Positions 43,480 through 49,885 of a DNA stretch of 64,000 nt are shown here, piece after piece. A program made the translations under genes and the position numbers. This DNA comes from Devosia neptuniae (GTDB taxonomy: Bacteria > Pseudomonadota > Alphaproteobacteria > Rhizobiales > Devosiaceae): contig NZ_CP104964.1 of the NCBI RefSeq assembly GCF_025452235.1, positions 62,001 to 126,000 of the forward strand, in the 5' to 3' direction. Within the stretch, counting starts at the first letter, position 1. Each line of letters starts with the position of its first letter. The notes under the pieces were generated by a model. It did not search any database. It saw only the letters and a list, made by a program, of their open reading frames with translations, and was not told the origin of the DNA.

Positions 43480-45713
43480 CTAGAAGCTGACGGAAGCGGA
43501 AACCTTGAATGTACGGGGTGCACCCGCGGCGAGAAAACCACGGGCCGACGAGGCCCAGTAGTTCTGGTCGAAAACATTCTCTATAGCCGCTTTCAGTTCC
43601 ACCGGTTTGCCGTGCGGTCCTTCGACCTCATAACGCATGCCGACGTCGAAGCGCGTCCAATCTGATACTTCTTGGGTGTTTGCCTGGTCATAGAACGCGC
43701 TACCGCTATAGATCACTCTTCCGGTTAGAGTCAGACCAGGGGTGATCCAGGGCACGTCATACTCGCCATAAAGACTGAGGGCTACCTGAGGCACACCCGT
43801 CACTTGGTTGCCATCGTAAAGTCCTGCCTGGGTCCGTGCCAATTGGGCGTCCATGAATGTTACGCCGCCGAGCAGGCGAAGCCCCTCGAAGGGTTCGCCA
43901 TAGGCCGACAATTCAATGCCGCGATTAACCTGCAAGCCATCAAGGCCAAAGGCTCCGCCCGGAGCCGTGAAGCCGTTCGGTTGCTCGATCTCGAATAGCG
44001 AAGCAGTCAGCAGAACCGATCCGGTATCGTACTTGACGCCGATCTCCCGTTGCGTGTTGACGACAGGGGGGAACATTTCACCGCTATTGGTCGCAGCGGC
44101 CGGCGCGATCAGGCCCTCGGTCAAACCCTCGACATAGTTTCCATAAACGGAGAAATTGTCGGTGATGGCCACCGAGGCCGCGATGGCGGGGCTGAAACGA
44201 CCGCCTTCGTAAAGATAGGTGCTTGTTCCAATCGGACCACGATCCGGGCGCGTATTGAAGCTCTCTGAACGCATTTCCTGGTAGCGTCCCCCAAGCGTGA
44301 GCTGGAACCGATCGTCAGCAAAAGAAAGAGTGTCGCTGACTGCGACACTGGTGGCCATCAGGTTCGCGAATAGTGGCAAACTGTCCGAACGCGGAAAGCC
44401 ACTCGTGTCCACCGAACCGTCGGGAAGGTAGACCGGCGCATAAATATTGGTGGGGTATGTTCCGGGAAGGATGATGGAGGCCGGAGCAAAGCCGCCACGA
44501 TAGTTTTCGTTGAGCGCCCGCGCGAGACGTTGACCTGGTGGCCGACAGGACCGGTGTCGAATTCCGAGCGCAAGCCGATCTCACCTGAAAAACCTTGGAT
44601 CTGCTGCGGCTGAATGGCAAGTGTGGCCTGTGCGGCGCCACTGGCGTCGATGATGCGGTGGGAAGAGGAGAGGAAGTCTTCCCGGTAACGGCTGACCCCT
44701 CCGGCGGCATAGATAGTGGTATTTGGAAGCACGTCGAATTCGACCCGACCGGCCACCATGTTGTAGGTGCTGTCGTGGTATTCGAACGGGCTGGACAGAT
44801 TGATGCGGCCGCTCGGCGCGCTGGGTATAACAATTCCCGGCGCTGCCGAATTGAATAGCGACGTCGGCGCGTCGATGTTCTGCGTGGAATGATTGAGATC
44901 GAGCGATGCGCGAAAGCGTTCGCCGCGATAGTCGAGACCCAATGAGGCAACGCCAACTTCGACCAGATTGTTGTCGTAAGGCGTATTGCCATTGCGGTAC
45001 GATCCATTCACGCGGACGCCCCACTCGCCTTCGGGACCAAAGCGGCGGCCAAAGTCGAGATGTGACCATAGCTGGGCGTCACTGGTAAATGTCGTGGTGA
45101 TGCGCGTCAGCGGCTGGGTCGTCGCTCGTTTGGGAATGAGGTTGATCGTTCCACCCACCCGGCCAATACCACCATTTACCAATGCCGTGGGGCCCTTGAG
45201 GATTTCAACCTGCTCGATTCCCTCAAGGAAGCTCCGTCGAGGGTTGGCGATATAAAATAGCCCGTCAAAGGCGGTATCGAGATTGGTGACGGAAAAACCG
45301 CGGATGAAGAAAGCGTCGCGCTCGCTGAAGGGTGAAGCGTCGTTGCGCACCGATGGGTCGTTTAGCGCCACCTCGCCAATCGATCGCGCCTGCTGATCGC
45401 GGATCAACTCGTTGGTATAGCCGGTGACGCTGAAAGGGGTGTTGAGAACGGGACGGTTGCCCAGCACGCCTAGCGTTGTACCCGAGGCGACCTGGCCTCC
45501 TGCATAAGGAGCCATCGGCTCGCCAATCGTGCCTGTTGCCGATGTCGGCTCGCTCGCCACGTCAATTACCAACCTCTCAAGCATTGTTATCCCTGACGGC
45601 GCAGGGACGCTTGCTTGCGCGGTTTCCTGCGCTACCGCCGAAATTGAGGTCGAAGTGAGCAGTGACAGAGCGGCCAAAGCCAAAAGGCTTCCGCCGCGGA
45701 ACAAAAACAACAT
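43480..45713 (-). pseudogene. TonB-dependent siderophore receptor, frameshifted
   Basis: A signal peptide begins at ATG 45713 (LLALAALSLLTSTSISAVAQ). The plug domain follows (RDAFFIRGFSVTNLDTAFDG, VEILKGPTALVNGG) and then the 22-strand barrel. Near 44530 the frame breaks at NVSR: two extra bases (a CG in a CGCGCG run) divert it, and the neighbouring frame continues ALNENYRGGFAPASI to the normal C-terminus GAPRTFKVSASVSF at 43480. Restored, it would be a ferric-siderophore receptor of about 740 aa. The dinucleotide run also makes slippage or sequencing error possible. Confidence 0.85.
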
Positions 45714-45754
45714 TTGCGATCCCCCAGACCCGTCCATATTCAGAGCAATCACAA

Positions 45755-45775
45755 ACTTGACAATTTGAGTCAAGT
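45755..45775 (-). promoter_or_regulatory. Iron-responsive (RirA-type) operator of the TonB receptor
   Basis: A perfect palindrome ACTTGAC-N7-GTCAAGT. Inside it TGA (45758-45760), nine bases and TCA (45770-45772) match the rhizobial iron-responsive operator TGA-N9-TCA bound by RirA. It lies 42 bases before the chosen receptor start. Confidence 0.7.
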
Positions 45776-45845
45776 CTAGTTTTAAGGCGCTGTTTGACGC
45801 AGGCGGCTGGTTGCCCAGCTTAAAAAACGTGATTGGAACTAGCAG

Positions 45846-46507
45846 ATGCGCGTTGGAGCAAGCGCCCGCCTAACTGCCGTTTGGGTAGCAATTCTGTTGG
45901 TACCTGTGCGACTGGCGGTCGGCCAAGAAGACCCGGACAATCTCAGCCACCTACTCAAAGTCACGAGGTCGTCGCTCAGGCTGCGCAGGGGAGCGACAAG
46001 CTAGGCGAAGCGCTACAGGTCGCTCAAGCGGGCGAGAGTGCTTCTACAGCTACTTTGCCGAATGGTGCATCTTCGATCACAGAGACATTCGGTGATTGGA
46101 CCGTAAACTGCGCGATACAGAACAACCAGAAAGTCTGCGCGACAAGCCAAGCACAGGGCGACAGTCAGACGGGCCAGCAGGTCTTCGCAATTGAGCTCTA
46201 TGCGTCGCAGCGGGGTGCCCGCAGCGGCGTCCTGGTCCTACCCTTTGGCTTGGATATCCAGTCGCCGGTCACGCTTAAAATTGATGAGCAAGCGCTGGGA
46301 TCGGGAGCGAAATTTACAACCTGTGTCCCGGGCGGCTGCATTGTCCCGGTGATTTTTCCGCCTGACGAACTCGAGGCTCTCAAGAGAGGAACTACGTTGA
46401 CCGTAGCTGCGAGAAGTGCGTCCGCCGCCGCCGAGCCCGCTGAGTTCTCAGTTTCTCTCTCTGGCTTTACCGCGGTCCTTGGCCGCGTAGACCAACTTAC
46501 TCCTTAA
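45846..46507 (+). pseudogene. IalB-like secreted protein, frameshifted near the signal peptide
   Basis: From ATG 45846 one frame gives a good signal peptide (TAVWVAILLVPVRLAVGQ) and EDPDNLSH. Near 45945 the coding continues in the next frame (QSHEVVAQAAQGSDKLGEAL) into an IalB (invasion-associated locus B) domain: TETFGDWTVNCAIQNNQKVC, VLVLPFGLDI, CVPGGCIVPV. One base restores a protein of about 220 aa. Without the correction, the domain has no signal peptide. Confidence 0.75.
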
Positions 46508-46547
46508 TCGCTTGGGCCGGCCTCACATGACGGCATCTCGCTCAAGG

Positions 46548-46719
46548 AAAAAAAGGCCCCATCGGAAGATGGGGCCTTTGAAGTGGTGGCCCGGCGCAAG
46601 GGAGGAGGATATGCGCAGGACCGGGCGGATCCAAGCCGAGGGAGGAGGATTCGACCTAAATCCGATGTCACAAGAAGCGGGTCCGAGGGAGGAGGATACG
46701 GAACGGCTTCACCAGCAAC
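46548..46719 (-). ncRNA. Anti-Shine-Dalgarno small RNA with three UCCUCCUCCC loops
   Basis: Read on the minus strand, TCCTCCTCCC occurs three times (plus-strand GGGAGGAGGA near 46601, 46640 and 46687). Each sits in a hairpin loop: TCCG/CGGA stem (plus outer AAGC/GCTT), a 7-bp AGGTCGA/TCGGCTT stem, and a GCGCA/TGCGC stem with outer GCCCG/CGGGC. A 12-bp terminator stem (46552-46579) with seven T closes it. Exposed CUCCUCC can pair with mRNA ribosome binding sites, as in the rhizobial alpha-r14 and cuckoo-type sRNAs. About 170 nt. Confidence 0.8.
46552..46579 (-). terminator. Rho-independent terminator of the small RNA (bidirectional)
   Basis: A 12-bp stem AAAGGCCCCATC / GATGGGGCCTTT around loop GGAA. 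Leftward it is followed by seven T (46548-46554 read on the minus strand). It may also end rightward transcription from the IalB-like gene, though the T run there is only three. Confidence 0.85.
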
Positions 46720-46725
46720 AGTTGT

Positions 46726-46754
46726 AATTTAGGTGTGGACTGGATGGTCAGCAA
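46726..46754 (-). promoter_or_regulatory. Promoter of the anti-SD small RNA
   Basis: On the minus strand TTGCTG (46754-46749), a 17-base spacer and TAAATT (46731-46726), placing the start near 46719, just before the first hairpin. Confidence 0.55.
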
Positions 46755-46940
46755 TCCTGACCCGGACATGCGAACCATGCACTTGGCACAGCGCTATTCT
46801 GACGCACCGGTGCAAGTGCCTTACGCGTATGTCAATGCCGCAGGGCGGCAACTCGTGCTGACAAGCAGGCCTGGGAGCGCGCGCTGCGGCCGAAGCGATG
46901 TCGCCTGGCATGGCAAGACCATGGGCAGGCCGAGAAAGGC

Positions 46941-47575
46941 CAGGGCCGTAGGCGCTTTGCCCACCGCGTCAGCCCGTATCTTGCCCAGGGCACTACAGAT
47001 TTTCACCCAGTCCGGCGTTTCCGCGACGGTGCGCGTCATTACCGGTCCCAATGCCTATCTGCTGTCGCTGTTGCGCTCAGGCGATGTCGATCTGGTTATC
47101 GGTCGCATGGCCGAGCCGGGCGAGATCGCCGGCCTCTCCTTCGAGCATCTTTACTCCGAAAAGATCGCCTTCGTCGTCGGCCCGGCTCATCCGCTTCTCT
47201 CGGTGCCCGATTTCACTTTATCCATGATCGGCCAATATCCGGTACTGATGCCGCCACCCGGCGCGGTCATCCTGCCCACGGTCGAACGGCTGCTGGCAAC
47301 ACATGGCGATTTCGCCATGTCTCATCTGATCGAAACGGTATCCGACAGTTTTGCGCGCAGCTTCCTGCGGCTGACCAAGGCGGTGTGGATCATCTCCGAA
47401 GGCGTGGTCGTCGACGACATCGACGAGGGGCATTTTCGTCTGTTGCCAGTCGATACCGGACAACCCTGGGTTCGGTGGGACGGACCTCTACGACCAATAC
47501 ACCCCTCTCATCGCCAGCGCGCTATCTCCTCGATTGCATTCGCGCAGCGGTGAGCGAGGTTTCCGGCACGAACCG
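46941..47575 (+). pseudogene. LysR-type regulator, effector domain only, frameshifted
   Basis: The substrate-binding domain of a GbpR/PcaQ-type LysR protein is clear: VGALPTASARILPRALQIF, then DVDLVIGRMAEPGEIAGLSF and LTKAVWIISEGVVVDDIDEG. The N-terminal helix-turn-helix is absent. Near 47465 the frame shifts; the alternative frame supplies the expected end (GSVGRTSTTNTPLSSPARYL). It cannot bind DNA. Confidence 0.75.
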
Positions 47576-49029: not shown

Positions 49030-49545
49030 TCAGCCCCCATCGCCGATGGCGGCGATCGACGCCGCGATATCGGCGATAGACCGAAACAGCACCAGTGCAT
49101 CGTCACGCGAGGGCATGAAACCCCTTCGGGTCCAAAAAGCAGCGGCCTCCGGATCGACGGCATTGACCACGAGGGCACGACCCCCGATCAGACCAGCGGC
49201 CTCGACGCAACGCGTCAGGGCGTGCTTGACGAGGCCGGTACCGATCCCACGTCCAGCCCACGCAGTGTCCGTCGCTAATTGCCCTAACAGTAGACACGGC
49301 ACAGGGTCTGGCGGCTGCCCAGTTCGAATGGAGCGCGGCATGGTTGCCGCAACGATGGCGGTCGGTGCGAGACCGTAGAACCCGACGACACGCCCAGCCT
49401 CATGCACCACCATCACGGCGGTAAAGCCCTTGGTCTGATTGGAGAGTGCCCGGTTTTGTAGCCAATGGTCGAGGGCCGGCTTGCCGCAGGAGAACTCGGA
49501 AACATCATGATGTGACGCAAGCGGCTCAGGCGAAGATAGGGTCAC
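49030..49545 (-). CDS. GNAT acetyltransferase toxin (TacT type)
   Basis: 171 aa. The acetyl-CoA site is LGQLATDTAWAGRGIGTGLV (RxxGxG/A type), with the N-terminal PLASHHDVSEFSCGKPALDH and the C-terminal AAAFWTRRGF typical of TacT toxins, which acetylate aminoacyl-tRNA and stop translation. It begins 3 bases after its DUF1778 antitoxin. Confidence 0.9.
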   Translation of the reverse strand: MTLSSPEPLASHHDVSEFSCGKPALDHWLQNRALSNQTKGFTAVMVVHEAGRVVGFYGLAPTAIVAATMPRSIRTGQPPDPVPCLLLGQLATDTAWAGRGIGTGLVKHALTRCVEAAGLIGGRALVVNAVDPEAAAFWTRRGFMPSRDDALVLFRSIADIAASIAAIGDGG

Positions 49546-49548
49546 GGA

Positions 49549-49845
49549 TCAGTCCCCGTCGCTCTCGGTCTCCCATGGTGCCGGACGCCGCATGGCCTCG
49601 ACCATTTCTGGCACAGGCCGGCCCGGCTGGGCCAAGGCGTCCATGAAGGTCCTGAACCCCTCCGCGCTCATACGAATGGGCATAGCTTCCATGATGACAT
49701 TCTCCGCTTCCCGCACCGCCGCATCGCGTACGAAATCGGTCCTCGAACGACCCCGCAGGCTGGCGGCACGGTCGATCATGGCAATGTCTGCTGACGGCAG
49801 CCGCATTGAGAGGGGATGATCCTTGCGTTCGATGATATTGGGCAT
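49549..49845 (-). CDS. DUF1778 antitoxin (TacA type)
   Basis: 98 aa. A ribbon-helix-helix DNA-binding N-terminus (PLSMRLPSADIAMIDRAASL then RGRSRTDFVRDAAV) and a C-terminal toxin-binding tail. GGAGGT lies 7 bases before the ATG at 49845, so this start is preferred to the ATG at 49866. Autorepression probably acts through the palindrome at 49886-49904. Confidence 0.9.
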   Translation of the reverse strand: MPNIIERKDHPLSMRLPSADIAMIDRAASLRGRSRTDFVRDAAVREAENVIMEAMPIRMSAEGFRTFMDALAQPGRPVPEMVEAMRRPAPWETESDGD

Positions 49846-49885
49846 GGCAATACCTCCATTGTTCATGACGACAATATAGCCGGCC

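Follow-up and report, generated by a model that had tools for sequence, protein, structure and literature searches.

The window, a 64,000-nucleotide stretch of DNA, comes from the soil bacterium Devosia neptuniae, whose genome of 4,715,470 bases has two contigs, C2 (4,182,684 bases) and a second replicon, C1 (about 533 kb), on which the window lies. A small RNA gene was located on the minus strand of the window, flanked on one side by a TonB-receptor/IalB pair and on the other by a transposase remnant and a truncated LysR gene (Table 1). Its start at 46719 was placed from the position of the -10-like element. The three loop motifs given in Table 1 are copies of the anti-Shine-Dalgarno sequence UCCUCCUCCC, all on the minus strand. 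The 64 kb window contains no others, and its dinucleotide shuffles averaged 0.15, with none of 100 reaching three. The whole genome has 13 copies of this 10-mer, nine of them within the window RNA and its two chromosomal relatives. In the predicted minimum-energy fold (-76.1 kcal/mol, z = -6.08, with none of 200 shuffles equally stable), each motif occupies the loop of its own hairpin, and the terminator hairpin follows at 46579-46552, with a T-run on the minus strand. These results uphold two statements of the earlier note, namely that three anti-Shine-Dalgarno motifs each sit in their own hairpin loop and that a strong terminator comes after the hairpins.

Table 1. Features of the small RNA gene and its surroundings (positions in the window)
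Feature	Position	Strand	Remarks
Small RNA gene	46548..46719	-	about 172 nt, inferred ends; supported by 125 homologous copies at 65 loci of the genus, R1 model and terminator
Hairpin 1	46667..46719	-	motif 46687-46696 in loop; outer helix 46719-46715/46671-46667; inner helix 46702-46699/46685-46682
Hairpin 2	46627..46663	-	motif 46640-46649 in loop
Hairpin 3	46588..46622	-	motif 46600-46609 in loop
Intrinsic terminator	46548..46579	-	12 pairs; T-run after; loop without motif
-10-like CTAAAT	46727..46732	-	from sequence; consensus of aligned copies here tctATAT
-35-like TTGCTG	46749..46754	-	from sequence; ATTG in at least 80% of aligned copies
TGCA-N6-GCAT, candidate LsrB/VtlR site	46768..46781	-	matches the box of the NfeR1 promoter as given in PMC10746234
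IalB-like gene	45833..46507	+	PF06776, Pfam E 7.8e-25; convergent with the small RNA
65-bp transposase-gene stretch	46848..46912		92-95% identity to genomes G005 (two places) and G058
LysR-type frame without DNA-binding part	46948..47553	+	Pfam LysR_substrate only; homology to genome G035 starts at 46948

Both neighbours named beforehand, an IalB-like gene and a broken LysR gene, do adjoin the small RNA, and the LysR-type frame gave no HTH match in Pfam. Kinship of this fragment with LsrB was considered, and none was detected on comparison. The frame that holds the 65-bp transposase stretch in G005 has HTH_38 and rve domains, and we take the stretch to be IS30-like. Homology to the Devosia sp. 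A8/3-2 plasmid CP104975.1 covers 44000-46510 at 89% and ends just past the IalB stop; beyond this end, the next annotated genes on that plasmid are ABC-transporter genes, one of them for iron chelate uptake. The plasmid copy of the small RNA may have arrived by rearrangement near a transposable element. The 65-bp stretch recurs, at 88% identity, in two Mesorhizobium plasmid records. The TonB-dependent receptor at 43480-45773 (-) is apparently split, into frames 44358-45773 (Plug domain) and 43480-44412, and the matching stretch of the A8/3-2 plasmid has no gene among the PLSDB genes listed, in a table that is incomplete. A GNAT acetyltransferase adjoins a TacA1-like antitoxin at 49030-49866 (-), a TacAT-type toxin-antitoxin pair by domains. 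With the small RNA as query, a plasmid search gave no match, and a phage search gave only 41-base matches at the terminator, in three Brevundimonas phages.

The window copy is the third in the genome. A tandem pair of RNAs built in the same way lies at C2:2536154-2536611, one of them 76% identical to the window copy, and both fold similarly (z -6.3 and -4.5). Their neighbours are a HAD-type hydrolase, a complete LysR gene of the LsrB/VtlR type (with HTH_1 and the substrate domain), and a gene that is presumably trxB, named from its sequence. A covariance model (R1) was built from the three copies, and it scores the window copy, itself one of the building sequences, at 149.5 bits (46588-46719). 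Searched at E 0.001, R1 matched 68 of the 75 genus genomes, with exactly two copies in 65, three close together in G045 and G046, and three in the window's genome; it was absent from seven, several of which are incomplete. At this threshold, a copy outside the tandem locus occurred in only one of the 75, the window's genome, and the same-species genome G067 has only two copies. Within the family, matches came from 108 of 136 genomes, representing 10 of 16 genera. Searches of more than 40 genomes (the genus, family and order sets) used stricter filters and scored part of the candidates, and the analyses of loci covered 65 of the 68 matching genomes (all but G059, G070 and G073).

Other elements were seen around the chromosomal pair. 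Upstream of it lies a shorter RNA-like gene (L009:4690-4830 (-); G000:C2 near 2536690-2536830) with one CCTCCTCCC, strong hairpins (z -6.8), an ar14 score of 24.7 bits and its own GCATGGCTG box. In 43 of the 65 genus loci, a CCTCCTCCC precedes the first exact triple by 150-300 nt, and it may sometimes be a member of an imperfect triple. Just downstream of the distal chromosomal RNA, a GC-rich inverted repeat (L009:3960-4060), possibly a repeat element, gave spurious matches to miRNA models.

The promoter that the earlier note had thought plausible has candidate elements. A generic sigma-70 scan of 46000-47500 found none, and it was the alignment with the 125 other copies that brought out a -35-like element, a -10-like element separated from it by a 16-nt spacer, and a LysR-type box. 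Upstream of the RNAs, GCAT[AG]G was present in 124 of 126 copies and GCAT-N3-TG-N3-T in 93 of 126, the window copy not among the latter; these patterns were searched anywhere within 150 nt, with no fixed place required. The candidate LsrB box of the window copy lies at about -62 to -49 from the inferred start, whereas in the NfeR1 promoter TGCA-N6-GCAT is described at -72 to -60, as an LsrB site bound in gel shifts (PMC10746234). The abcR1 box GCAT-N3-TG-N3-T is placed at -61 to -49 in PMC8844928.

We investigated the surroundings of the chromosomal pair across the genus. In 61 of the 65 loci, a LysR gene (lsrB) 86-100% identical to that of the window's genome precedes the RNAs on the same strand, at a distance of 0.3-3.1 kb to the first motif; of the four other loci, three are short stretches and one starts past the expected place of lsrB. 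trxB was present in 54 of 65 loci, the remaining stretches being short or cut. A relative of lsrB was found in six of seven loci of other Devosiaceae genera (81-87% identity) and near five of six ar15 loci checked in other families of this order (54-58%). The gene order in A. tumefaciens is given as trxB-vtlR-abcR1-abcR2 (PMC7486931), and in S. meliloti abcR1/2 are located between SMc01226 and lsrB (PMC8844928). For ar15 (RF02345), nothing in the window's own genome exceeded the gathering score of 40; the best match, 18.8 bits, lies elsewhere in the genome. At E 0.001, ar15 matched 45 of 297 genomes of the order, and none of the 45 belongs to the Devosiaceae, represented in the sample by at least 13 genomes. 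Given the position beside lsrB and trxB, together with no ar15 over the cut-off in the own genome and no genome of the family among the 45 matches, the chromosomal copies occupy the AbcR position. This position belongs to the chromosomal relatives only, not to the window copy.

Trees were then compared for the origin and state of the window copy. In the core-only tree it clusters with the distal copies (support 97/96); its place there, apart from the distal copy of its own genome, has weak support. When the promoter was included, in a tree of 63 of 66 rows (L212_2, L221_1 and L196_2 left out), it grouped with its own lineage at 94/84, which is not decisive. Its end branch is long, 0.23 (core) and 0.37 (with promoter) against medians of 0.031 and 0.051. 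A recent duplication from the own distal copy was neither rejected nor established when the two were held together (p-AU 0.151), the window row being long-branched. A short hairpin before the terminator, GATTTGG..TCGG, was found by a simple pattern in 105 of the 125 other copies and is missing from the window copy. Owing to the long end branch and the missing short hairpin, the window copy may be decaying. It could then be a disused relic of rearrangement near a transposable element, with the chromosomal pair doing the work, and the changed -10 (CTAAAT), the absence of such a copy from the same-species genome, and the adjoining transposase remnant and truncated LysR gene point the same way. 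Yet, despite the divergence, 31 of 32 pairs are standard, and the 16 positions at which it departs from a consensus built on the 60 best-scoring rows (both copy types, window copy included) all lie outside the three 10-mers. Several stem changes are C to U, with G-U pairing kept, and the box, the -35-like element and the terminator are still present. We consider disuse unlikely and favor a copy that still functions as a regulator.

The earlier note had suggested that such an RNA blocks ribosome-binding sites, and the candidate targets fit this prediction. GGGAGGA-N4-11-ATG, complementary to the loops, has 109 sites in the genome against four for the reversed pattern; the 109 include at least three sites that are antisense to the small RNAs. 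The first 30 sites by position were annotated and frames below 100 aa dropped (10 of 30), leaving 20 open frames of at least 100 aa, 12 of which encode periplasmic binding proteins (SBP_bac_5 in four, SBP_bac_1 in three, TctC in two, and SBP_bac_11, Peripla_BP_4 and DctP in one each). The control AAGGAGA has 89 sites against 15 reversed; its first 30 (10 and one duplicate dropped) gave 19 distinct frames with two binding proteins over the cut-off, or three with one weak match. The enrichment, 12 of 20 against 2 of 19 (Fisher p = 0.002; 0.008 counting the weak control match), is correlative and covers 30 of the 109 sites, and strong ribosome sites may be a feature of binding-protein genes for unrelated reasons. 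This class of candidate targets agrees with the reports for NfeR1 and AbcR, and their regulation here is a prediction. The motif is also a generic anti-Shine-Dalgarno sequence in three copies, so that the loops could mimic the 16S rRNA tail and act as a sponge, titrating other RNAs or general translation instead of silencing chosen mRNAs. The enrichment of the candidate sites in one functional class is at odds with this, as is the relative NfeR1, which silences mRNAs by three redundant motifs in the account of PMC10746234; titration thus appears improbable compared with the silencing of selected mRNAs.

The stems of the RNA are conserved by covariation. Among 126 distinct rows, 94.0% of cells were paired, compared with 78.8% when shuffled and 14-48% when slid by one to three columns, and both-side changes occurred at 28 of 32 base pairs, compared with 17.9 in shuffles, in an alignment that was fitted to the model and is biased toward pairing. 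The unfitted three-row alignment had both-side changes at 6 of 41 pairs. By element, such changes were found at 9 of 9 pairs in helices 1 and 2 (hairpin 1), 11 of 12 in hairpin 2 and 8 of 11 in hairpin 3. Read on the minus strand, the alignment has 300 G-U cells and 39 A-C cells; the excess of G-U indicates that the minus strand is the RNA strand. Conservation of the plus strand as a ribosome-site-rich leader, which the earlier note had set against its own proposal, was not what these counts revealed. A plus-strand reading, in which the GGGAGGAGG boxes serve as genuine ribosome sites for small frames or a leader (ORF 46512-46727, +), is extremely improbable, since the presence of GGGAGGAGGATATG on the plus strand in each of the genome's three copies and the existence of a 71-aa frame have to be set against the G-U excess, the covarying stems and a terminator T-run on the minus strand.

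Taken together, we read the window gene, at a probability of about three in four, as an apparently functional third copy, located on a plasmid, of an alpha-r14/cuckoo-type small RNA found in Devosia, activated by LsrB and masking the Shine-Dalgarno sites of genes for solute-binding proteins. LsrB/VtlR, encoded beside the two chromosomal copies, would bind the TGCA-N6-GCAT box and, once bound, would activate transcription from the sigma-70 promoter of the small RNA. The three single-stranded UCCUCCUCCC loops, redundant with one another, would then base-pair with extended Shine-Dalgarno sites (GGGAGGA and longer), mostly in mRNAs of periplasmic solute-binding proteins. Such pairing would block ribosome entry, repress these targets and lower nutrient uptake.

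The RNA is most likely of the known alpha-r14/cuckoo kind; it is distinguished by occupying, on the chromosome, the place that AbcR1/2 take in S. meliloti and A. tumefaciens, and by a copy on a plasmid. The locus position and the promoter box link two small RNA families that are usually considered separately, alpha-r14 and AbcR/alpha-r15. A more tentative proposal, which we hold to be possible rather than probable, is that in Devosiaceae the AbcR position and the LsrB circuit were taken over by triple anti-Shine-Dalgarno RNAs of the alpha-r14 kind, or that AbcR descended from these, from one ancestral lsrB-linked locus for NfeR1-like and AbcR-like RNAs. By the same proposal, rearrangement near a transposable element gave the plasmid a trimmed copy, an LsrB-controlled handle on the nutrient uptake of the host. 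Anti-Shine-Dalgarno small RNAs form a conserved tandem locus in 68 of the 75 Devosia genomes examined, and in one genome a plasmid has such a regulator as well. No mention of Devosia was found in the sampled part of the open-licence literature on AbcR and small RNAs. Since Rfam cut-offs miss every one of the genome's three copies, uptake control of this sort would stay unannotated here.

The comparison with known families begins with Rfam, where nothing in the window passed the gathering threshold. The best match is ar14 (RF02344), with 52.5 bits against a gathering score of 58.8 (E 8.3e-9 over 501 nt; 46548-46668, -), and the second by E-value is CcsR1 (RF02791), with 24.5 bits against 65.3. 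The chromosomal copies score 35.3 and 28.6 bits with ar14. At E 10, control genomes also gave matches, 9 of 14 for ar14 and 12 of 14 for ar15, all under the cut-off, so weak scores at that level are uninformative. The alpha-r14/cuckoo layout put forward in the earlier note stands as to the nearest family, albeit under the Rfam cut-off, and as to the conserved three-hairpin structure, but not as to the third motif, which is outside the terminator loop. In the ar14 model consensus, this motif is in the terminator hairpin, whereas in the window RNA it has a separate hairpin, and the model's terminator hairpin aligns to a window hairpin without the motif.

This layout was surveyed in 98 triple-motif genes from 78 named loci, by spacing and T-run rules; two of 80 loci gave no triple. 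By the T-run rule, the third motif is outside the terminator in 11 of 12 Devosia genes, 19 of 26 from Paracoccaceae, 9 of 9 from Roseobacteraceae and 64 of 98 overall, some of these outside-terminator genes having further motifs downstream, and inside it in 13 of 17 from Rhizobiaceae. A layout unique to Devosia was ruled out by these counts. Triple TCCTCCTCCC was also seen, among the matches listed, in Acidimicrobiaceae, Lachnospiraceae, Hungatella, Acidobacteria, Clostridiales and Planctomycetota records (L055, L058, L059, L086, L098 and L111), perhaps as coding sequence, repeats or misbinning.

The window RNA shares with ar14/NfeR1 three hairpin loops with CCUCCUCCC (predicted unpaired in the window RNA), variable stems, several copies per genome, the TGCA-N6-GCAT box and candidate targets of the solute-binding type, and differs in length (ar14 123 nt, window RNA about 172 nt as inferred). 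For NfeR1, the founding member, PMC10746234 describes Hfq independence, names ntrB as a target and suggests that its further-upstream NtrC site is restricted to plant symbionts. The tandem AbcR1/AbcR2 RNAs resemble the chromosomal copies in their place beside lsrB/vtlR and trxB, the LysR-type box and candidate targets among transporter mRNAs, but they differ by the ar15 score of the own genome given above. CcsR1-type RNAs of Rhodobacter likewise have CCUCCUCCC loops in tandem hairpins, two in the model compared with three in the window RNA. The Rhizobiales cuckoo-type families RFMSmelA075/RFMSmelA099 also vary in the number of anti-Shine-Dalgarno hairpins and have copies on different replicons (PMC3927594); the three motif hairpins and motif-free terminator of the window RNA set it apart from their descriptions. 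The same source proposes a single family for RNAs that vary in how many such hairpins they have; the window RNA would be a member of it. We predict from sequence that the Devosia RNAs work like alpha-r14, yet they are not ar14 by the Rfam cut-off or by layout.
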